21,280 bases of DNA from a virus: IMG/VR virus record IMGVR_UViG_3300031707_000220, positions 1-21,280 of that record; one strand, 5' to 3'. The notes beneath the pieces were generated by a model. That model was not told the DNA's origin, did not search any database, and was given only the letters and a program-made list of their open reading frames with translations. Below, piece by piece: positions 417 through 21,280 of the stretch. Position 1 is the stretch's first letter, and each line of letters opens with the position of its first letter. The position numbers were made by a program, and so were the translations under genes.

Positions 417-815
417 ATGAATGACTATGGCCATTGGATTGTAAAAGAAGAACCGCCGGAAAATAGTATCGGATTTATTTATAAAATAACCAATCTCACT
501 AACGATAAAAAATATTTGGGCAAAAAATTGTTGAAATTTAAAGTCTCCAAGAAGCCTCTAAAGGGTCGTGTAAACAAACGACGATCTACAAAAGCCTCCG
601 ATTGGAAATCCTATACGGGAAGTTGTAAGAAACTACAAGAAGATATACAAAAAATTGGTAAAGATAATTTCCTCTTTGAAATTTTATATTGGCGCAAATC
701 CAAATCTGAACTTAACTATGAAGAAATGAAACAAATAATACTTGCCAATGCACTATTTGATTCTAGTTATTACAATGAATATGTTGGCGGTAGAATTAGA
801 ATCCAAAAATTTTAA
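417..815 (+). CDS. GIY-YIG family endonuclease (SegE-like)
   Basis: This 132-residue protein has the GIY-YIG core near its N-terminus: GFIYKITN at residues 19-26, then KKYLGKK at 32-38 (the GIY and YIG elements). It continues with SDWKSYTGS (61-69) and a Glu-containing segment LNYEEM (99-104) that could supply the metal-binding Glu. Length and motif order match small phage GIY-YIG proteins of the SegE type, which are free-standing homing-like or DNA-processing nucleases. It is the only supported plus-strand gene. It diverges from the primase gene and converges on the repeat-protein gene, with the two stop codons overlapping (812-815). No Shine-Dalgarno is visible. Whether it is a mobile homing nuclease or a fixed phage nuclease cannot be decided here. 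Confidence 0.75.
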   Translation: MNDYGHWIVKEEPPENSIGFIYKITNLTNDKKYLGKKLLKFKVSKKPLKGRVNKRRSTKASDWKSYTGSCKKLQEDIQKIGKDNFLFEILYWRKSKSELNYEEMKQIILANALFDSSYYNEYVGGRIRIQKF

Positions 816-1378
816 GGATAATATTTTGTAGTGTCAATTTCTGTAGAATGTCCCGATGAATTATACAAAGCTAATACAGGCGTTTCATTTGGTGTATGTT
901 TTACAAAATTCGAATGACCAGATTTATTAAAAGTAGCAAGAATTGGCGTTTCATCTGGCTTATGCTTTACAAAATGAGAATGCTCCGATGCGTTAAAAGT
1001 AGCAAGAATTGGTGTCTCATCTGGTGTATGTTTAATAAACTTAGAATGGTCTGATGCATTAAAAGTGGCAAGAATAGGCGTTTCGTCTGGTGTATGCTTT
1101 ACAAAATGAGAATGCTCTGACTTATTAAAAGTTCCAAGGATAGGCGTTTCATCAGGCGTATGCTTTATAAACTTAGAATGGTCTGATTTATTAAATGTAT
1201 CCAATATAGGGGTTTCATTTGGAGAAATCTTAACAAATTTAGATTCTTTGGATTTATTATAAACACCTAATATTGGCGTTTCATTTGGTGTTATTTTACC
1301 AACCTTTGAATGCGCTGAATCTGCATATCTCTCTCGGAGAGAGATTGTATTAGTCGAAAGAATGTTGTCTTTTATCAT
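812..1378 (-). CDS. Protein of seven 22-residue tandem repeats, unknown function
   Basis: This 188-residue protein has a short unique N-terminus (1-23), seven tandem 22-residue repeats (24-177) and a short tail ending TTKYYP. The repeat core is KHTPDETPILATFN, followed by a short Ser/His linker. Thr-Pro-(Asp/Asn)-Glu-Thr-Pro-(Ile/Val)-Leu is nearly invariant. There is no Cys, no signal peptide and no membrane segment. I do not recognise the family. It follows the adhesin gene by only 18 bp, so it is probably the last gene of the late operon and could be a virion or fibre-associated component; this is inference from position only. Start: the ATG at 1376-1378 is preceded by a TATATTTATAA element rather than a Shine-Dalgarno. 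The end overlaps the stop of the convergent nuclease gene by 4 bases. Confidence 0.8.
   Translation of the reverse strand: MIKDNILSTNTISLRERYADSAHSKVGKITPNETPILGVYNKSKESKFVKISPNETPILDTFNKSDHSKFIKHTPDETPILGTFNKSEHSHFVKHTPDETPILATFNASDHSKFIKHTPDETPILATFNASEHSHFVKHKPDETPILATFNKSGHSNFVKHTPNETPVLALYNSSGHSTEIDTTKYYP
848..1309 (-). repeat. Seven tandem 66-bp in-frame repeats
   Basis: Seven 66-bp units (462 bp) encode the 22-residue repeats. Middle copies are more alike than end copies. Copies 3 to 6 alternate SKFIK and SHFVK at their starts, which suggests expansion by duplication of a two-unit (132 bp) block. Confidence 0.9.
1327..1345 (-). other. Perfect inverted repeat (hairpin) near the 5' end of the repeat-protein gene
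   Basis: Bases 1327-1335 (ATCTCTCTC) and 1337-1345 (GAGAGAGAT) are exact reverse complements around one base. In the mRNA this gives an 8-bp stem with a CCG loop, beginning 33 bases after the first base of the start codon, in the codons for Ile-Ser-Leu-Arg-Glu-Arg. It may affect translation or mRNA stability, or may be a by-product of codon choice. Confidence 0.45.
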
Positions 1379-11183: not shown

Positions 11184-12107
11184 TTATGATGACGGAGGGG
11201 TTAATATAGCCCTTTCAAGAGTAAGTAATTCTGTTTTAGAAAGGCCTTTCTTGCCATCAGTATTAAAAGAAGTGACCACAGGATTTCCTATCTTATACTG
11301 TTTCTTTAATGTCTTTATTTCTTTTTTACTCAACATAAAATTACCATCCACATCAAATTTTGATAACAATGATGTTTTTGTCTCTATTTTTGCTACATTT
11401 CTGTAAAATGTGTCAATAATAAACTGTAAATCAGTCTTGGAAAGCGGAAGTGTATTGTCTTTCCTTTTTAAAGTGTCCAATAAAACAGGATTTCCTATCT
11501 TATATTGCTGCTGTATATTCTTAATTTCTTTTTTATCCAATATGAAATCTGAATTCAAATCGAATATGGCTAATGGATTACTAGCAGAAATCTGCGCCGA
11601 TCCTGTGGGAAATACAATTGGTTCTCTCGAACCCGTTGCCGGCGCAGGAGCGTTCAATGGTAAATATGGAAATTCTTCAGAAAAATCCGCTTCAGTTGTA
11701 CCTTGACCCAAAAGTATTCTTAAAGAGATAATAACATCTCTTGCATTATTAGAATTAGCAATTAAATCAGCTACTACAGCAGAATCTATTCCCACCGCAG
11801 AAAGTTGATCTTGTAATGATTGTACTTGGTCATTTAAAGAACTTACCAACGCAGAAAAATCTACAGAAGGCGCATCAGATGCTGCTCCAGGAAGAAATTC
11901 TTCAAAATCTAAAGTATAAAATTGGGATAATTTGGTTTCATCATAAGAATAATTAAAATTATTTTTCTTCAAAAAGGTTTGATTAAAAATTTCACCACTA
12001 TCTTTAAAAAACAAATTACCAACAGAATCAAAACTATAAACATAAATCAAAGAATCATTTCTGAAACTTGATATATCTACATTAAATTTATTTAAGTTGT
12101 CGCTCAT
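11184..12107 (-). CDS. EF-hand/dockerin-like Ca2+-loop protein of the virion gene cluster
   Basis: 307 residues. Residues 84-105 (SALVSSLNDQVQSLQDQLSA) may form a short coiled coil, and a Pro/Ala/Gly-rich linker follows near 150-170. The C-terminal 130 residues contain two related units. Each begins with a 12-residue Ca2+ loop: DLNSDFILDKKE (183-194) and DVDGNFMLSKKE (252-263). Both are followed by a helix ending (K/Q)QYKIGNPV. Each unit has a second, weaker loop (near 215-226, and NTDGKKGLSKTE at 282-293). This is the arrangement of paired EF hands or dockerins. The start overlaps the stop of the upstream gene (TAATG at 12105-12109), so the two are probably translationally coupled. The role in the particle is unknown; Ca2+-dependent assembly or adhesion is inference. 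Confidence 0.65.
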   Translation of the reverse strand: MSDNLNKFNVDISSFRNDSLIYVYSFDSVGNLFFKDSGEIFNQTFLKKNNFNYSYDETKLSQFYTLDFEEFLPGAASDAPSVDFSALVSSLNDQVQSLQDQLSAVGIDSAVVADLIANSNNARDVIISLRILLGQGTTEADFSEEFPYLPLNAPAPATGSREPIVFPTGSAQISASNPLAIFDLNSDFILDKKEIKNIQQQYKIGNPVLLDTLKRKDNTLPLSKTDLQFIIDTFYRNVAKIETKTSLLSKFDVDGNFMLSKKEIKTLKKQYKIGNPVVTSFNTDGKKGLSKTELLTLERAILTPPSS

Positions 12108-14188
12108 TATCTTACAATTTTAAATATAGCATTACTATCATATATTTCGGTAAAATTATCCGTTACAACTTTTATCAAAACCTTATAATATCTTTCTTGA
12201 GGTAGACCAGTAGTATCCAGTTTAAAGTAATTTCCATTTTCATCACAACTTAATTTACTATAATTATCGAAATCTACAACATTTTCATCGCTCTCCATAT
12301 CTTTAATAGCATAATAGCTGGAAGTAGGCAAATATTTTGTGTCTAAATATACAGTTTGTAATCTGGAAAATGATTTTTTTGGATACAAATCCCTTGAAAA
12401 TATATCAAATCTAACCATCGAACCAAACTTATATTCTTTCTTTAAATTCTTAATAGAAACAGCTATTCCAGCACTTGAAGTTATAGGAGCAAGCTCTCCA
12501 GTTGAGAATGATGAATCATCCCATTGAACATCAATATATGGAGTATATATCGTATTGGTTTCTTTAGAAAAGAATTTTAATTTTCCGTTAGTATCACCAT
12601 TTGCTATTTCTTCTGAACTTATTAGAATAAGACCCGCATTTTGTACCGCTCCCGCCATCCAAGCCTTACAAATATTAGTTATGTCCATCTTTATATCTGA
12701 CTTTTGATAATAATCAAAACTCTGTGAACATATCAATGAACTAGATGATTGTAACGAAGAAAAATAACTAGACACATAATAACTTGGCGTGCTACCAGTG
12801 GTTTGATTATAAGTGTAATTTTCCACCGATTGTATACCCGCGTTAAAATATGACATAAAACTAGAAGAAAATGCGTTAAAAATACTTGAAGAAAATTGTG
12901 TTTGTAAAACCGCTGTGGAACTAGACAATATATACGGAGATATATCAGCTAATACAAATCCTAAATATTCAGTTTTCAGTCCTGCTAGTAAACTAGAAGT
13001 ATTTAAATATTCCGCATATGCTCCCGCATATTTCGGATCACACTGAGAAAGACTTGATGTTAATACAAAGCAATGATTTGAACTAGTACTTAATTCTTGA
13101 AATAAACTATTATAGTAATTAGTGTAGAAATTATATGCAGTTAAAGCAACAAGACTATTTGACAAATTTGTTGCTCCCAGTTGATTTAATTTTGCATATA
13201 ATTCGCTGTATATTGAACTAGACAAACTGCTTGATATCGTTAAAATATAAGAATATGAAGCTGACGCAAATGAACTGGAAAATTGCACCGGATATAAAGA
13301 TGATTGTAAACTAGAAGAAAGTGCTAATAAAAAGCAAACACTAGCACTTACTTCAAGACTTGACGATGGATCTGTAGTTGCATTTACACTTGATGTTACA
13401 TTGTTATAAATTGAATCCGTTAAATTTAATAAGAATGTATATGAGTTTTGTATATTCGCGTTTGTTAATTGGGCATTGGTCAGCACAGAATTCAAACTTG
13501 AACTTAATATACTATAAAAACTAGAAGTCAAATTAGTCTGTAAACTTGAAGAATATACCGATTCAAAAGTAGAAGCTGGTGTATCAAAAAATGTGGTTTG
13601 AACACTTGACGATGGAAAAATAAAATTTGGTGGTACAATATAATACCACTGACCACCGCCCATCATAAATGATGCAGTAGACGGATAATCCAAATAATTC
13701 TCATCCGGAACATATGATGTATCAATGTTTGGATACCACACACTTGAAGTATCCGGCCAGTTTGTAAATACCCAGTTTACACCCGCCTCACTTCCACCAA
13801 ATGCATATATACCATTTCCCATCTCCCATGGCCATTTTAACGGATAACAATATATTTTATATGTAAGGGGCAACGCTGAAGCATCCGTGGTTTTCAAATT
13901 TAATATAAATTTAGGATTAGCTATCTCAGCTGTGGTAACAGACTTGGAAATCTCAGTTAAATCAAACTTTAAAAGACTTCGTTGTAATACTCTTCGTTTT
14001 TCAACAACAAACTGGCTAGATGATAACGCATAACTTCCTGATATATATCCACTTATAATACCATTAAAATTTGTAAGACTGCCAGTAAAACCATTAATTG
14101 AACCAGTAAACGGCCCACTAACAGAACCGCTAATACAATAGTTTGTTATTGAACCCGTGAAGATTTCAGAATTAAATGATAAAGACAT
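12107..14188 (-). CDS. DNRLRE-like virion protein with a large Ser-rich insertion
   Basis: 693 residues. The N-terminal 55 residues are Gly/Ser-rich (repeated TGSI and SGSV-like steps). QRSLLKFDLTEISKS (69-83) and KMDITNICKAWMAG (500-513) look like the first and second halves of a DNRLRE/CBM96-like beta-sandwich, as does KLKFFSKETNTIYTPYIDVQ (536-555). The halves are separated by a segment of about 300 residues (about 195-490) very rich in Ser, with many SSSL/SSSI/SSSF steps, and no family I recognise. The end (YPKKSFS at 602-609 region, LPTSSYYAIKD, YSKLSCDENGNYF, ERYYKVLIKV) resembles a structural protein conserved in T4-like and huge phages. There is no signal peptide. A virion fibre or tail component is likely. 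The stop overlaps the next start. Confidence 0.65.
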   Translation of the reverse strand: MSLSFNSEIFTGSITNYCISGSVSGPFTGSINGFTGSLTNFNGIISGYISGSYALSSSQFVVEKRRVLQRSLLKFDLTEISKSVTTAEIANPKFILNLKTTDASALPLTYKIYCYPLKWPWEMGNGIYAFGGSEAGVNWVFTNWPDTSSVWYPNIDTSYVPDENYLDYPSTASFMMGGGQWYYIVPPNFIFPSSSVQTTFFDTPASTFESVYSSSLQTNLTSSFYSILSSSLNSVLTNAQLTNANIQNSYTFLLNLTDSIYNNVTSSVNATTDPSSSLEVSASVCFLLALSSSLQSSLYPVQFSSSFASASYSYILTISSSLSSSIYSELYAKLNQLGATNLSNSLVALTAYNFYTNYYNSLFQELSTSSNHCFVLTSSLSQCDPKYAGAYAEYLNTSSLLAGLKTEYLGFVLADISPYILSSSTAVLQTQFSSSIFNAFSSSFMSYFNAGIQSVENYTYNQTTGSTPSYYVSSYFSSLQSSSSLICSQSFDYYQKSDIKMDITNICKAWMAGAVQNAGLILISSEEIANGDTNGKLKFFSKETNTIYTPYIDVQWDDSSFSTGELAPITSSAGIAVSIKNLKKEYKFGSMVRFDIFSRDLYPKKSFSRLQTVYLDTKYLPTSSYYAIKDMESDENVVDFDNYSKLSCDENGNYFKLDTTGLPQERYYKVLIKVVTDNFTEIYDSNAIFKIVR

Positions 14189-14195
14189 ATATGCC

Positions 14196-14206
14196 TATAA
14201 ATATAA
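14196..14206 (-). promoter_or_regulatory. TATATTTATA element before the DNRLRE-like gene start (copy 3)
   Basis: Third exact copy of the 11-mer TATAAATATAA (plus strand), 7 bases before the ATG at 14188. The 62-bp gap it sits in (14189-14250) separates the AT-rich virion block from the right-hand cassette and would be a natural place for a promoter. Confidence 0.4.
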
Positions 14207-14250: not shown

Positions 14251-16404
14251 TCACGGAAGAGGAGAAATTACAGGATCTATAACATATGTAGCAATTCCGC
14301 TGCGTCCCACCAAATTTGTAATATCATAAACCCCAACAGTGTCAGTAAGAATTGATGTTGACAATTTATTTCCATAAATATCCTTCAATGATGGTAACGA
14401 CACAGATTGTGTTTCACCCTCTGCTGCCCAAGTAAAAATGCGTTTAATGGATATTCCTGGAACTGAATTATGAGCTTTAAATGTAACAATAACTTGTCTA
14501 TTAGTAATTACAAAATCGAGAGGTTTTAACCCACGAGTTAATGTTGCTAACATAAATATTGCGCCAGTCTGTGGTTTTGGACCATGACCCACTTCAAATC
14601 CAGAGAACTGATTCCAACTCTGTTCTAGGTCAGTGTAAGGAGGAGACTCATTCGGCCAGCCAATAATGTTCATATTGCCATTCCACATCTGCATATTATA
14701 GGCAAGTAAAATCAGTGCATTTTTTATCAATCTCTGTTCCCCTGTATGCCAATCTATGCCCGACCCATTATAGCGATGTGTGGGAACTTTGCTATAAGGG
14801 GTATCCAGAGTCGCTGACCGGGCACTATACTCAGTTTCATCCACGAACAACGGGACAGTACCCATAGTAGCTGAAATAGCCTGCACATAAGCTACATGAG
14901 TGGTATATGGAGTAAACGCCCAAGATTTATAGGCTTCCCACCACGGGTAGTAGAAGTCAACGGGGGCATTATCTAGGTCGCCGTCGTGGAAAGAGATGCC
15001 CGCCATTCGATTCGTCAGACCCCGCGTCCCCATCATGCGAAATAGATCTAAATAGGCAGATACCGTTGAGGGAGTATAGATTTTAACATTACTGTTAAGG
15101 GCTGCCTTCACATACATGGTCGTCTCGACAAGATCGCAAATCCGATTCAGCCAGTTGGTGTAGGCTTGCCCACAATCAGGGTCGCCCCAATCCATTGTGG
15201 GACAGCCAGTCGCGTCGAATGGTATCCGAACTTTGAGATTGGGCGAGTTCAGTTGTGTCTCATACCACGGCTCATTCAAAATCTCCAGATAAACCCGGCC
15301 TTGGTCAGCCAGCGTCTTAAAATGAGTCATCAGCGCGCCGACATAGTTTGTCCAACCGCGTGCGAACTCCGCCCAAGTGTTCGTCGCGTAATAGACGGGT
15401 GCCGACTCAGCATGAAGGATGATTTCTCTGGTTGAGCCAGCATTGGTAATTCCATTAGGCAGATAGTTGATCGAATCTTCCATATGCGGCCCGCAGTTAC
15501 CAGGAACACAGTAATTCCAATCCCACGTCGCGGGGTCTTCGCCAGCAGGAACACCATTTGTTTGAAGAGTTGACCAATTGTGGCCGTAATGAATCCGCAG
15601 AATTGACGGGTTCATATTGGTAAAGATACCAACCATCGTCCCGACTTCACCCGCCGCGATCGGGCCTTCTGTCATAAACCATGGCGCCGGAAGATAATTT
15701 GCGGGCAAGACAATAAACTGGATCCGATCATCGCTGTTCTCTGCAAAGTAAAAACCAACGGGAAGATTTGTTATTGCCGCGGGGGAAGCACCAGAAAAAA
15801 CAGTGTGACACTTTCCCGTAATGACGGTGTAGACCGTTAAGGCCGAGTTGTCCTGACTCGTTAAATCTACAGTCTCCCCCGCTTTATACATACCTGTATC
15901 GCGCTTCGCAATCCGACACATTCCAGTTCGCACCATAGAATTTTGCCAGCAAAGAACGGTCGTGCCGTTGATGGCCGAAACCGCTGCTGCCAGCCAATTC
16001 GTTGGGTTGTTGCCTGGATACCAGCGATTAAAGTCGCCCATCGACGCGTCGCGCGACTCGTTCCAATACGATTTGTTGGTGGTCAACGACGAAACTCTAT
16101 TGGTCTGGGCGTCAAACAGAGTTCTGCCAGAAAACGGCAGATTCGTTACGCCATTCGTCGTCCATGCCGAAAAGCGAGCAATATACAGCGTTGTGCCATC
16201 ATCACCAACCACTACGTTCGTTTGGGTTGATCCGAGAATCATATGATTGATTGGGACGTTGGTTTCGGTGGTGTCAAGTGTCACTGACACGGTGAAAGTT
16301 CCTGTGTTGGTTATCACAGAGTAAATTACCGCTTGTGCATTACCAACAAAGGTAAGCAGAGCGACTATTATAAGATATGCAAGGTATCGTTTTATTATAT
16401 TCAT
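14251..16404 (-). CDS. Secreted glycoside hydrolase clan A-like protein, paralog 2
   Basis: 717 residues. A signal peptide is clear: MNIIKR, hydrophobic YLAYLIIVALLTFVG, cleavage after NAQA (residue 25). An N-terminal beta-rich part (30-240) is followed by a TIM-barrel-like region. VYLEILNEPWY (371-381) fits the end of strand beta-4, with Glu378 as acid/base. SFHDGD (471-476) fits beta-6. VPLFVDETEY (517-526) fits beta-7, with Glu523 or Glu525 as nucleophile. A C-terminal beta-sandwich (about 620-700) follows. This is the plan of clan GH-A enzymes such as GH5, GH39, GH51 or GH79; the exact family and substrate are unknown. It aligns along nearly its whole length with the next gene upstream. 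The C-terminal third of the gene is AT-rich like the phage block, while the rest is GC-richer. No Shine-Dalgarno is visible. Confidence 0.65.
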   Translation of the reverse strand: MNIIKRYLAYLIIVALLTFVGNAQAVIYSVITNTGTFTVSVTLDTTETNVPINHMILGSTQTNVVVGDDGTTLYIARFSAWTTNGVTNLPFSGRTLFDAQTNRVSSLTTNKSYWNESRDASMGDFNRWYPGNNPTNWLAAAVSAINGTTVLCWQNSMVRTGMCRIAKRDTGMYKAGETVDLTSQDNSALTVYTVITGKCHTVFSGASPAAITNLPVGFYFAENSDDRIQFIVLPANYLPAPWFMTEGPIAAGEVGTMVGIFTNMNPSILRIHYGHNWSTLQTNGVPAGEDPATWDWNYCVPGNCGPHMEDSINYLPNGITNAGSTREIILHAESAPVYYATNTWAEFARGWTNYVGALMTHFKTLADQGRVYLEILNEPWYETQLNSPNLKVRIPFDATGCPTMDWGDPDCGQAYTNWLNRICDLVETTMYVKAALNSNVKIYTPSTVSAYLDLFRMMGTRGLTNRMAGISFHDGDLDNAPVDFYYPWWEAYKSWAFTPYTTHVAYVQAISATMGTVPLFVDETEYSARSATLDTPYSKVPTHRYNGSGIDWHTGEQRLIKNALILLAYNMQMWNGNMNIIGWPNESPPYTDLEQSWNQFSGFEVGHGPKPQTGAIFMLATLTRGLKPLDFVITNRQVIVTFKAHNSVPGISIKRIFTWAAEGETQSVSLPSLKDIYGNKLSTSILTDTVGVYDITNLVGRSGIATYVIDPVISPLP

Positions 16405-16423
16405 ATAAAAATTATCTCAACTA

Positions 16424-16463
16424 TTATGGATTAGATGGAGCTGTGACGTGTTCATAATAATCA
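16424..16463 (-). pseudogene. Frameshifted C-terminal remnant after the 16461-18587 gene
   Basis: Just after the codons NPSW the gene hits TGA (16461-16463). Skipping one T (16463) gives an open frame of 12 codons, DYYEHVTAPSNP, then TAA (16424-16426) and TAG. The peptide is protein-like and continues smoothly from the gene's end. A one-base insertion, a sequencing error or a +1 frameshift could explain it. It is short, so chance cannot be excluded. Confidence 0.35.
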
Positions 16464-18587
16464 CCATGAAGGATTGGCTGCTGTTAGAGGATTGACACGA
16501 ACAGTTGGCAGTTTACCGATGAGCCCGCCTCTAGCAAATGCATTGGTCACTTCGTACCATCCTACAGAGTCAGTCAAAAACGTCGGGGAGATTGAATTCC
16601 CATAAAGGTCACGCAACCACGGCAGATTTACCGTTTTCGTTTTGCTTGTGGCCATCCAAGTAAACACGCGCCGAACTGTTACTCCCGGAGATGGATGACC
16701 AACATCAAACGTAAGGATAACTTGGTCATTAGTAACTACGTTACTAACAGGTATGAGTCCCTTGGTCAGATGCGCCAATTGCAAAGTGTTTGCTAGTCCT
16801 GGTTTTGGACCACGTCCGCGTTCCCACCCGTAAATCTGAAGAATTGTACCTTCAAGGCCGCCATACCGACCAATGCCGTCGTCATCAGGGTAGGCGTATA
16901 TCACATGGTGAATCCACATCTGCGCGTTGTGGGCCAGCCAGAGAAGACCTCGTTTAGCCAGATGTTGTGAACCATCGTACCAATCCACCCCCGATGAATT
17001 GTAATCGCCTCCTGGTCCCCAACGAATGAAACCCTTGGCGTACGGTGTGTCAAGAAGAGCCGACCGGATGAGGTACTCAGTTTCATCAACAAGAATAGGC
17101 GTAGTGGTGCCTATCGCATCTTGTAGGGCTGTTATGGAGTCGTATGACACTCCACCACCGGGCAATACCGTAAAATCCTCAAAGTTGAGCCCGCCGCCGT
17201 CGTGGATTGAAAATCCCATCCAGTCTGGGCCATTGGTCGCGCCGTGGTCGGCCATATACTTGAACACATCCCCGTAGTTTGGATTGCTCGTTGATATCCC
17301 ATAGATTTTGGCCTTGCTGCCGATTGCGACCTTCACCGCCGTTGTTGTTTTTACCAAGTCAGTCATGAGTTGCATCCAGTTGGTAAAAGCCTGATGGCAT
17401 GGTGGATTGTTCCAATCCATGTCGGCGCAACCATTCCAGTTAAACGGCATCGCCGATGGTTGGTGGCCGTAAAAGGGCTCGTTCAACACCTCAAGCCACA
17501 ACCTTCCTTCGTCGGCCAACGGCTTAAAGTGGTTCATAATTGCCCCGACGTAGTTCGTCCACCCTGCCATGAAAATTGCTAGAGAATTAGTTTGGTAGTA
17601 TACCGGTGCTTGTTCCAAGTGGATAATGAGCACTCTGGTCGAGCCGGCATTTGTGATGCCGTTGGCTGGCCAATTAACGCGCTCGACCGAACCAGACGGA
17701 TACGGATACCACTCTGGAAATCCCCAAGCCCATGTGGTGGTGTCTTCTCCTGACGGTGTGCCATTGGTTTGGAGCATCGACCACGGGAAACTACCCAATC
17801 CTCGGACGAAATGTGGGTTCATGTTTGTCCACGTAGTTGTCAGTAGTCCGTTGTTTTGTGACCCGAATGGTCCTTCCAATCCAAACCAAGTTGCTGGGGA
17901 GTAGTCGGCTGGTTGTACCAAAAACTCCATGCGGTCGTTGGAATTCTCCACGAAGTAAAGTCCAACAGGCAGGTTCGTCAACGCTGCTGGTGATGCCAAA
18001 CTACTGGCAACTGTAACACATTTCCCAGTAACAGTTGTATAGACACTCAAAGCGGAGTTGTCAGAACTTGAGAGGGAAACAATGGCTCCCTGTTTGTACA
18101 TTCCTGGTTGTGCATAAATGATGCGGGGTGCTCCCGTATGAACAAGAGAAGTCTGCCAGCAAATTGGTGTCTTCTTGGAAACAGCGTCCACCGCGGCCTT
18201 GACCCAGTTGGTTGGGTTGTAACCGTCTGTCCAACTGATTCCCGTCGCATACAGGCGATTCTCGTTCCAGTAGGCTTTGTTGGTAGTTACAGAAGTCACC
18301 AGATTAGTTTGAGCATTCCACATCGTCCGACCGTAGAATGGTATATTCGCTTGCCCATTCGTTGTCCATATACTGAAGCGGGCAATTCCCAAGTCACTAT
18401 AGATGTTTGTATCCGTGCTTCCAAAAATCAGAAGGCTGATTGGGAAATCGGTTTCAGTTGTATCAATTGTCACTGAGACGGCAAAGGTACCAGTATTAGT
18501 CACAACCGTATACACGGTGGCTACGGCTCTTGGCATAATTGCCAGTAGAAGCAGTACCAGAATAATTCTAAGAATGCGGTTATTCAT
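16461..18587 (-). CDS. Secreted glycoside hydrolase clan A-like protein, paralog 1
   Basis: 708 residues from the ATG at 18585-18587; an in-frame ATG at 18597-18599 would add four residues. The inner start is preferred because GGAGG lies 5 bases before it, and it overlaps the upstream stop (TGATG). The signal peptide is MNNRILR, hydrophobic IILVLLLLAIM, then PRAVA. The same plan as its paralog is seen: LWLEVLNEPFY (Glu370 as acid/base), SIHDGG, TPILVDETEY (Glu502 or Glu504 as nucleophile), then a C-terminal beta-sandwich (FTWMATSKTKTVNLPWLRDL). A clan GH-A fold is likely; GH family and substrate are unknown. Secretion through Sec is unusual for a phage tail protein, so this may be a secreted or envelope-bound enzyme, or a domain borrowed from a host. 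The stop may reflect a frameshift (see the 16424-16463 entry). Confidence 0.65.
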   Translation of the reverse strand: MNNRILRIILVLLLLAIMPRAVATVYTVVTNTGTFAVSVTIDTTETDFPISLLIFGSTDTNIYSDLGIARFSIWTTNGQANIPFYGRTMWNAQTNLVTSVTTNKAYWNENRLYATGISWTDGYNPTNWVKAAVDAVSKKTPICWQTSLVHTGAPRIIYAQPGMYKQGAIVSLSSSDNSALSVYTTVTGKCVTVASSLASPAALTNLPVGLYFVENSNDRMEFLVQPADYSPATWFGLEGPFGSQNNGLLTTTWTNMNPHFVRGLGSFPWSMLQTNGTPSGEDTTTWAWGFPEWYPYPSGSVERVNWPANGITNAGSTRVLIIHLEQAPVYYQTNSLAIFMAGWTNYVGAIMNHFKPLADEGRLWLEVLNEPFYGHQPSAMPFNWNGCADMDWNNPPCHQAFTNWMQLMTDLVKTTTAVKVAIGSKAKIYGISTSNPNYGDVFKYMADHGATNGPDWMGFSIHDGGGLNFEDFTVLPGGGVSYDSITALQDAIGTTTPILVDETEYLIRSALLDTPYAKGFIRWGPGGDYNSSGVDWYDGSQHLAKRGLLWLAHNAQMWIHHVIYAYPDDDGIGRYGGLEGTILQIYGWERGRGPKPGLANTLQLAHLTKGLIPVSNVVTNDQVILTFDVGHPSPGVTVRRVFTWMATSKTKTVNLPWLRDLYGNSISPTFLTDSVGWYEVTNAFARGGLIGKLPTVRVNPLTAANPSW

Positions 18588-21280
18588 CACGGCCTCCATT
18601 CCGCCGTGAACGGCTTAGTGAGTTGTAAGTTGCGCAGGGTCACAAAATTACTATTCGTGTTGTAGGGGTCTACATTCATTGCGGGTTGCAACACCAGCAC
18701 GGTGTTGCCATAGCTGCTGGCAAGCGCAGTAAAATTCATGGTCGTAACAGACACGGTCGAGGTCAGCGAATGAACCGTTGTTACTGTCCCACCCGATGTT
18801 ATTGTGCCAGATGCGTTCCAAGCGCGAAGGTAGTAAGTGACTCGCCACGAGTGGTTTGTGTTGTTTTGCCCAGTGCCAAGTCTCCACCCAATCGTCACGC
18901 GGACGGTGTTAGCTGCGACGGGCCTCTCTCCCAACGGGAAGAACCACAGGATGTTGTTATTATTCGTGCAGCTATAAGCAGGGGAAGTAGCCCAGTTTGG
19001 TTCGATTGCCAAAATGGCGTCTCGCTCCGGATACTGGGTGAGGCCAAATGCGTTCACATTCGGCCAACTCCCATTTTCCCATGCGTCAGGGTTAGCGACA
19101 GAGTATGTCCCGTTCACATCCGTCATGTGAGACGGTAGGGACAGCGAGACTTTCGCCGTGGTCAGGCCAACATTCGTCAGGCCGCTGCCGTTGCCGGTTA
19201 GGGTGGCCGCATTCAACACCCCGCCCACGGTCAGATTACCAGCCGTGGTAACTGCCCCGGTCGCCCCGCCACCGTAGACTATCTCACCTCCGCGCAATTT
19301 CAGGTCGGCAGTCCCGTCAAGAACCGGCAGCGGGTCAATACCGTAGAGGACGTCCGTGCAGTTGTCGCCATCGTTTTGCCAGTCGGCAATGACGAAGATG
19401 GAAGCATTCGTGCTCGTGTAGTTCGTGGCCCCGCTCGCGTTGAGACTCCACAAGCTGCCCGACCACTTCATCTCCCAAACCCCATTCGTCCAGAGTACCT
19501 GACTGTTCACAACGCTGTTGGAATACAGGGGGCCACTAAAACAGTCCGCTTCTACGGAAATGGAGACGTAGTTGCTGCTGGATGGCGGCGCACTGATTGG
19601 TTGCGTAAAGACATTCGTACCTGTCCACGTCTGGTTGGCTGTCAGGTCAACGCCGGCGCCGCCGCCGCCAAACCCGTTGGTTGGCATGATAAAGTGGGTG
19701 TACCCACCAATGTTAGTAATGATAACGCTACCACTTGTATTGGTGTAGGTCACAACCACCGTTGACGACGTGGAGGCGAACCCTGTTCCGTCTTGCCACA
19801 CCATTGACGGGATGCCATAGATATAGCCGATGTTATTGTTATTGCTCTTGGACAGCCCCGAAGCACCAGTGACATCAAGGTTGGTAATACCTCCGCCGGC
19901 AAACCCGTTGGTTGGCATTAGGAAATAAGTGATTCCACCGATATTTGTTATGATGATTCCTCCAGATGAAGCCGTATAATCAGCAACTACTACTGTAGAA
20001 GTACTTTGATAACCAGTTGAATCCTCCCAGACAGTTGGTGGAATACCATATAGATATATCACCGAACCGTTATTTGATACACTTAAACCAGGCGAGCCTG
20101 TAACGTCTAAATTGGTGAGCACTTGCCCGTTAATATAAACAAAGGCAGTAAGACCGTCCGCTGAATTAGACGCGCTAAACCCCGATGCCCCACTCATATT
20201 CAGGGAGCCAAGACTACCCAAGGCAGCGACCTGACCTGCCCGATTGGTAAAGATTTGGTTGAGTGGTGGTACGGGCATATTCTTCAAGCGAACTCTGGCA
20301 GCATCAAACGCAGCGTTATCACTGGTGGGGCTTACAAAGATTTGCCAACTATTAGTATAGCCAGTTATCATTTGAACATTGTCAAGGACGAGTGTTCCGT
20401 AACCAGTATAGGGCCGCCAAGAAACGCAGAGATTTTGATAGACCCCCGCCGCTCCGCAAGCTACCAATAACGAATCCTTGATATAGTAATATGACCCTGA
20501 GGGGCCGGTGATAGTGGGTTGGAAGGAGATGCAGCGCGCGTCGTTACCCGCTTTTGCTTTTGCAAAGAATACACAATCATTGGCGTGCAGAGTCAAAGTC
20601 CCCGCTGGACTGCTACAGTTTACATCATCCCACGCAGAAGAAAGAAAACAGTGGTCGAGCCATACATTACCCGTCCCTAAAATAGCATCTATGTTCAAAG
20701 TGGAAGGATACCGCCCAATCCGTAAGTAATGAAAATCTGACTCGGTAGCATTTTGCGTACTGAAAAATAGGTCAACCTGACCGCCCCACCACGACAGGTT
20801 AGAATTGACAGTAATCCAATATAAACCAGCCTGACCTAGAATGTTGTTGCCTTGAACAACCGCCGTATTCTTGTTGATGAGGAAATTATTAGGAGTGGCA
20901 TTGTCAGTATAATTAGACCCTAACCACCAAATGCACCCGCCCCAAGCGGGCAACAAATTGTAAGCGTTAGTAAACGTCGCCGACGGCAGCGCGGGGTCGC
21001 CAAGCACAGCCGTACCATCAACACCAGAAGCGGAGACAAAGGCCGTATTTGTTGCGTTGTAGTAACGGTTAGACAATCCAACCATCGCCGCGTACGGTAT
21101 AACAAATGGAATATCCGATAGGTTTGTAATAGTCCCGTCTAAGGCAGTAAGTCCCAGCGCATTGCTCGACAAGACAGCGGTGGTTGCCCAATCGCTGTTT
21201 GTACTGTGCGCGGCGTTTATCGCATTGCTCGCCAAGACAGCGGTGGTTGCCCAATCGCTGTTTGTGCTGTGCGCGGCGTT
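18587..21280 (-). CDS. Large modular tail fibre/adhesin, C-terminal part (5' end beyond the window)
   Basis: 898 codons are visible and the frame is open to the window edge; no ATG near the edge opens it, so the true start lies outside. Order of parts from the visible N-terminus: two 21-residue repeats rich in Ala, Ser and Asn (ATTAVLxSNA-like, as in phage fibre shafts); a beta-rich region with GNNILGQAGLYWITVNSNLS and LTLHANDCVFF that may be a right-handed beta-helix; two about 76-residue repeats (TNLDVTG... to MPTNGF); an LTVGGVLNAATLTGNGSGL motif common in phage fibres; and a C-terminal beta-sandwich-like head. This is best read as a host-binding tail fibre. It ends in TGATG overlap with the next gene. 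There is no evidence of a chaperone or intramolecular protease domain in the visible part. Confidence 0.7.
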   Translation of the reverse strand, partial: NAAHSTNSDWATTAVLASNAINAAHSTNSDWATTAVLSSNALGLTALDGTITNLSDIPFVIPYAAMVGLSNRYYNATNTAFVSASGVDGTAVLGDPALPSATFTNAYNLLPAWGGCIWWLGSNYTDNATPNNFLINKNTAVVQGNNILGQAGLYWITVNSNLSWWGGQVDLFFSTQNATESDFHYLRIGRYPSTLNIDAILGTGNVWLDHCFLSSAWDDVNCSSPAGTLTLHANDCVFFAKAKAGNDARCISFQPTITGPSGSYYYIKDSLLVACGAAGVYQNLCVSWRPYTGYGTLVLDNVQMITGYTNSWQIFVSPTSDNAAFDAARVRLKNMPVPPLNQIFTNRAGQVAALGSLGSLNMSGASGFSASNSADGLTAFVYINGQVLTNLDVTGSPGLSVSNNGSVIYLYGIPPTVWEDSTGYQSTSTVVVADYTASSGGIIITNIGGITYFLMPTNGFAGGGITNLDVTGASGLSKSNNNNIGYIYGIPSMVWQDGTGFASTSSTVVVTYTNTSGSVIITNIGGYTHFIMPTNGFGGGGAGVDLTANQTWTGTNVFTQPISAPPSSSNYVSISVEADCFSGPLYSNSVVNSQVLWTNGVWEMKWSGSLWSLNASGATNYTSTNASIFVIADWQNDGDNCTDVLYGIDPLPVLDGTADLKLRGGEIVYGGGATGAVTTAGNLTVGGVLNAATLTGNGSGLTNVGLTTAKVSLSLPSHMTDVNGTYSVANPDAWENGSWPNVNAFGLTQYPERDAILAIEPNWATSPAYSCTNNNNILWFFPLGERPVAANTVRVTIGWRLGTGQNNTNHSWRVTYYLRAWNASGTITSGGTVTTVHSLTSTVSVTTMNFTALASSYGNTVLVLQPAMNVDPYNTNSNFVTLRNLQLTKPFTAEWRP
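18593..18597 (-). promoter_or_regulatory. Shine-Dalgarno GGAGG deciding the start of the 16461-18587 gene
   Basis: GGAGG on the minus strand, spaced 5 bases (CCGTG) from the ATG at 18587. It lies inside the last codons of the fibre gene, so the two genes are probably translationally coupled. It also contains the alternative ATG at 18599, which has no such site. Confidence 0.75.
19660..20117 (-). repeat. Two about 76-residue repeats in the fibre gene
   Basis: Two adjacent units (about 19888-20117 and 19660-19887) encode matching motifs: TNLDVTG, YGIP, VW(E/Q)D, TVVV, IITNIGG and MPTNGF. The first unit is AT-rich with codons such as ACT, GTA and TAT; the second uses GC-richer codons for the same residues. 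The boundaries are approximate. Confidence 0.75.
21155..21280 (-). repeat. Two tandem 63-bp repeats at the window edge (fibre shaft)
   Basis: Units 21218-21280 and 21155-21217 are nearly identical (a handful of differences) and encode 21-residue units, NAAHSTNSDWATTAV plus LxSNA(I/L). 21 residues is three heptads, which suits a coiled or trimeric fibre shaft. The array probably continues beyond the window. Confidence 0.85.

Follow-up and report, generated by a model that had tools for sequence, protein, structure and literature searches.

Gene arrangement around the two glycosidase-like genes

The stretch analysed here (the window) is a whole IMG/VR fragment of 21,280 bp. It comes from a large, T4-like tailed phage that is uncultured, and it carries the tail/baseplate module, with all virion genes on the minus strand. 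Two adjacent genes, here called GH1 and GH2, are found in this module together with a fibre-like gene, and the features of this part of the window are as follows.

12107..14188, minus: 693-aa conserved tail/baseplate protein, the downstream border of the insertion site
14196..14205, minus: TATATTTATA motif, just upstream of the virion gene after the cassette
14251..16404, minus: GH1, 717 aa, predicted to be exported; signal peptide, N-terminal domain, GH39-like catalytic domain and C-terminal beta domain
14251..14604, minus: 3' end of GH1 (117 codons), where GC3 is phage-native at 0.19 and differs from the 0.515 found upstream
14830..14832, minus: GH1 Glu525 of DETEY, predicted nucleophile, aligned to TEW of GH39
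15271..15273, minus: GH1 Glu378 of LNEP, predicted acid/base, aligned to WNEP of GH39
16330..16404, minus: predicted Sec-type signal peptide of GH1, residues 1-25, cleaved between AQA and V (rule-based scan; cleavage Ala invariant in the alignment)
16461..18587, minus: GH2, 708-aa paralog with the architecture of GH1
17076..17078, minus: GH2 Glu508 of DETEY (numbered from 18599), predicted nucleophile by alignment
17478..17480, minus: GH2 Glu374 of LNEP (numbered from 18599), predicted acid/base by alignment
18519..18587, minus: predicted Sec-type signal peptide of GH2, 23 residues, cleaved between AVA and T (rule-based scan and alignment)
18587..21280, minus: fibre-like protein, 5'-open at the contig end, its stop codon overlapping the GH2 start

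Both ORFs are intact and share 48% identity over 708 aa, in agreement with the first-pass annotation, which had described two adjacent paralogs. The program called GH2 as 16461-18599, with the first ATG at 18599; the better start is 18587, as that annotation had also placed it, because the ATG there overlaps the stop codon of the fibre-like gene (TGATG) and has GGAGG just upstream. No other listed start, either in the window or in L005, a related phage contig whose virion proteins are 62-63% identical to those of the window, has a ribosome-site-like sequence as clear as this GGAGG.

The TATATTTATA motif recurs ahead of two further genes, with starts at 1378 and 4456 (window 1384 and 4462, minus strand), and at the same place in L005 (9985), and a similar TAATATTTATA stands ahead of several genes in a marine contig (L022); these motifs are possibly the late promoter of this phage lineage. 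At the other end of the window, a SegE-type GIY-YIG endonuclease is encoded on the opposite strand (417-815, plus) between the primase gene and the virion genes, with similar ORFs in both related contigs, and the adjoining 812-1378 (minus) encodes a 188-aa protein built of repeats of about 20 residues (HTPDETPILATFN...), a diverged repeat protein being present at the matching position in the L005 phage. Because the nearest cultured relatives infect Flavobacterium and a Microcystis phage is also similar, the host is likely, but unproven, to be a diderm.

Export signals and catalytic domain

The N-termini of GH1 and GH2 have the three features by which a rule-based scan recognizes Sec export, namely a positive charge in the first residues, then an extended hydrophobic core, and lastly an AXA site, and cleavage is predicted after MNIIKRYLAYLIIVALLTFVGNAQA and before VIYSV in GH1, and after MNNRILRIILVLLLLAIMPRAVA and before TVYTV in GH2. 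Ala in the cleavage column is invariant in the alignment of GH1, GH2 and the L005 protein (three sequences), although their hydrophobic cores differ. When the scan was applied to 71 distinct phage ORFs, ten were flagged, and five of the ten were all five cassette proteins with a visible start in the window and L005: GH1, GH2 and the fibre-like, GH and OMP-like proteins of L005. Of the remaining flagged ORFs, also five, two resemble multi-span membrane proteins. A lipobox Cys, the mark of lipoproteins such as T5 Llp, was absent from GH1 and GH2, both of which have type I-like sites, and a weak lipobox (LMSC) was found only in the L005 fibre-like protein. There are exactly four Cys in mature GH2, and GH1 and the L005 protein share every one of them, as two similarly spaced pairs, an arrangement that would fit disulphides outside the cytoplasm. 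The first-pass annotation had read Sec signal peptides in both paralogs and proposed that their products are secreted by infected cells; the scan and the invariant cleavage Ala bear out the former, and the concentration of signal peptides in the cassette, together with that Ala, supports the latter. Judged from sequence, the cassette proteins look exported from the infected cell.

Scans against Pfam, PHROGs and NCBIfam gave no curated family for GH1 or GH2 and no match past cut-off; in Pfam even E<=1 brought no family for GH1, GH2 or the L005 protein, the cut-off of GH39 (PF01229) not being reached. Profile comparison was more informative. A four-copy phage catalytic profile matched a mixed GH39 set at P=2.3e-5, with LNEP placed on WNEP and DETEY on TEW, and matched a GH39-like subgroup from the Verrucomicrobiota phylum with Prob 92, P=6e-7 and a score of 59, the best score among 80 column permutations and reversals being 24.7. 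The same profile scored 39 against GH39 in the narrow sense, 32 against GH5 and 26 against GH30_2, and the controls GH10 and triosephosphate isomerase scored 15 and 12. The LNEP and DETEY motifs, which had been pointed out from the sequence before, are present in both GH1 and GH2; a predicted acid/base NEP and a predicted nucleophile TE[WY] occur in this order with family-like spacing, and both motifs are collinear with the catalytic glutamates of GH39.

Structural comparison serves as supporting evidence only. Two AF2 models were poor (pLDDT 32 and 39), and their top Foldseek matches were mostly TIM barrels; with a low-confidence domain model the best match was a GH39 enzyme (5jvk, E=1.1e-3), another GH39 ranking seventh. 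The full profile had a sole match in PDB, the beta-xylosidase 6uqj at E=0.42, and PDB sequence searches gave nothing significant. Because the structure models are poor, a GH-A fold is supported but not proven, and membership of clan GH-A is probable. Taking together the absence of a curated model, the profile matches and the best Foldseek match, we describe the catalytic domain as GH39-like and do not file it as a GH39 member. It has in common with GH39 (beta-xylosidases and others; clan GH-A) the collinear NEP/TE motifs, a predicted alpha/beta barrel followed by a beta domain, and the best profile and Foldseek neighbours; unlike GH39, GH1 and GH2 lie below Pfam recognition, have an extra N-terminal domain of about 220 aa and are known only from this phage group. 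The GH-A-type catalytic domain proposed in the first-pass annotation is thus supported by profile comparison, while substrate and role are still a matter of inference.

GH1 and GH2 appear to have the retaining-type pair of candidate catalytic glutamates, and the C-terminal GH domain of the L005 protein shares both residues, even though the three are only 35-48% identical. This conservation speaks against the view that these are catalytically dead GH-fold proteins serving as exported glycan binders or as receptor blockers for superinfection exclusion, a view which we consider very improbable even though the exported T5 Llp, encoded beside the receptor-binding gene pb5, acts in such a way (PMC9586334).

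Insertion site, neighbouring genes and composition

In L005 the gene order is gp25, the wedge gene, small genes, a fibre-like gene with signal peptide, a GH gene, an OMP-like gene with signal peptide and strong terminator, and a conserved 720-aa gene, and the fibre-like and GH genes come after the wedge operon, the gaps being 3-12 nt. The GH gene at this matching site encodes a fused version of 1014 aa with two catalytic domains, in which an N-terminal domain as in GH1 and GH2 precedes an additional GH-A-like domain (NEP at 401, SELG at 525), and the orthologous catalytic domain (NEP at 678, NETEY at 826) makes up the C-terminal part. The search for the same pair beside fibre genes in other phage contigs, which had been suggested as a check, has therefore succeeded with this fused version. 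In four more distant lineages (Flavobacterium phage immuto, Microcystis phage Mel-JY01, huge phage LR756508 and marine contigs) there is no insert, and no more than about 30 bp separate the wedge gene from the 693-aa homolog downstream. Because the cassette is present in L005 and the wedge gene directly adjoins the downstream gene in these distant lineages, the cassette, as read from these gene orders, is an accessory insertion of exported proteins inside a virion (tail/baseplate) operon. Presence in some lineage members and absence at the same site in others is characteristic of morons; as to the promoter and terminator of its own that a moron carries, no convincing terminator was found by the window cassette, and the terminator of L005 occurs only after the OMP-like gene. 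The L005 cassette has viral genes on both sides, the wedge gene upstream and conserved tail genes downstream, and one flank of the window cassette is the contig end.

Other genes of L005 also deserve mention. Two small proteins are encoded between the wedge gene and the cassette (L005:3674-4559), and the first starts with MHKKIYPIQDT, to be compared with MFKIIYPSNDA of the 386-420 aa proteins found downstream in relatives, so that they are possible duplicates. The OMP-like protein adjoining the cassette (L005:9235-9897) is an exported protein of 220 aa, and a 14-pair terminator follows its gene.

If GH1 and GH2 were virion-associated depolymerases, the hydrophobic N-terminus would anchor them or act in assembly, and they would belong to the tail, as the position of their genes among tail genes and next to a fibre-like one might suggest. 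We regard this as distinctly unlikely, in view of the classic signal peptide layout, the conserved cleavage Ala and the conserved Cys; moreover, the genes are absent at the site in other lineage members and therefore are not core tail parts.

The fibre-like neighbour itself calls for caution. Scans of Pfam, PHROGs and NCBIfam gave no usable match for the window protein, and no relatives were found when they were sought with it. It contains a module of 74-82 aa in two copies that is 52-58% identical to the fibre-like protein of L005 (L005:4990-6060), which has the ADFLDGFHA motif, as in tail fibres, plus a signal peptide, and this signal peptide is unusual for a tail fibre. A match of the L005 protein to DUF4995 was set aside, being below cut-off and spanning residues 1-67 including the signal peptide. 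Because the L005 relative has a signal peptide, the window neighbour may not be a virion fibre. The tail-fibre locus of the first-pass annotation is a baseplate/tail module, and the label "tail fibre" is doubtful, the gene being 5'-truncated and its L005 relative having a signal peptide.

The window cassette has GC of 47-52% and GC3 of 46-56%, against about 31% and 20% in the phage genes, and this sharp difference is what could favour an assembly chimera or host contamination as the source of the 50% GC block. This explanation is hardly credible and has been largely refuted, because a second contig (3300035701_000264) also reads across this junction and differs at only 3 bases in the part common to both, and because L005 has homologs at the matching site with phage-like GC (GC3 14-23%). 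Within GH1, GC3 breaks at codon 600 (14605), where 2dLL is 45 compared with at most 11.6 in 200 permutations, and a recombination junction is predicted near this position. This sharp drop inside the gene suggests that GH1 is a mosaic, in which incoming high-GC DNA would have recombined with a resident AT-rich copy; protein identities across the last 117 codons are weakly informative on this reading.

Profile searches of 388 Verrucomicrobiota-phylum and 395 Bacteroidota-phylum genomes, run without a positive control, found no relative at E<=0.01, a negative that carries little weight for want of such a control, and a genome scan by alignment found none; genome matches to the DETEY pattern were unrelated or due to chance. 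Two motif scans of IMG/VR brought up no viral contig beyond the pair known before, and among 2.9 million viral contigs there was no relative outside this phage group. The earlier suggestion of captured host genes finds no support in these sampled genomes and contigs, and the distribution of GC3 points to recombination with a resident homologous copy, not to an initial acquisition from a host.

Possible role outside the host cell

Because the cassette proteins look exported, the phage probably trims sugars outside its host and not as part of the virus particle. The explanation that we favour, with somewhat better than even confidence, is that the accessory cassette in the T4-like tail/baseplate operon encodes exported GH39-like hydrolases of clan GH-A, made late and cleaving glycans for release or spread. 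The cassette genes are co-directional with the virion genes, and GH1 and GH2 would be made late together with virion proteins and would reach the periplasm or the exterior through the host Sec system. There they may cleave a glycan of the host envelope, the capsule or the surrounding matrix. Such cleavage could make the cell or matrix come apart more easily at lysis and prevent progeny from adhering to debris or matrix, and the neighbouring fibre-like protein may bind the same or a related glycan. Against a secreted enzyme it can be said that virion-bound enzymes serve similar ends in many phages.

GH1 and GH2 might instead be auxiliary metabolic genes, whose exported products degrade environmental polysaccharide, for instance from plants or algae, and so nourish the infected host when infection is long. 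Glycoside hydrolases of soil viruses, embedded among viral genes on uncultured phage contigs as here, are known, one having confirmed endomannanase activity (Emerson et al., 2018; PMC6786970), and GH39-like relatives are common in the sampled Verrucomicrobiota-phylum genomes and occur in Bacteroidota. We nevertheless think this role rather unlikely, because the genes sit in a virion module beside a fibre-like gene and not with metabolic genes, because several catalytic copies and the other exported proteins point to the cell surface, and because no transporter or sugar-use genes were seen in the contigs. The genes of Emerson et al. (2018) were assigned to known GH families, and the main text of that paper does not mention signal peptides; the genes described here differ in belonging to a new family, in being duplicated and in lying in a baseplate/tail operon with other exported proteins.

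A more speculative proposal, to which we give a low probability, is that a lytic phage exports late a fibre-like glycan binder and matching glycosidases which are swapped as a unit, forming a receptor-destroying system comparable to viral neuraminidase or parts that join the virion outside the cell.

Exported accessory proteins encoded beside tail or receptor-binding genes are represented by the lambda morons Lom and Bor. The exported T5 Llp, encoded next to pb5, resembles the cassette in the same respect (PMC9586334). Unlike GH1 and GH2, Llp, Lom and Bor are small lipoproteins or beta-barrels and not enzymes; the closer parallel to them is the OMP-like gene of L005 with its own terminator, which is reminiscent of lambda Lom.

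Phage-borne glycosidases and exported phage accessory proteins are thus of a known kind, and what is new is an undescribed family of predicted glycosidases, so far found only in phages, and its arrangement, an exchangeable set of genes for exported proteins housed in a tail operon. Where genes of such operons are annotated as "fibre", care is needed, because exported proteins may be among them. Should host surface glycans prove to be the target of the enzymes, these would be a secreted equivalent of the depolymerases that phages carry on the virion.
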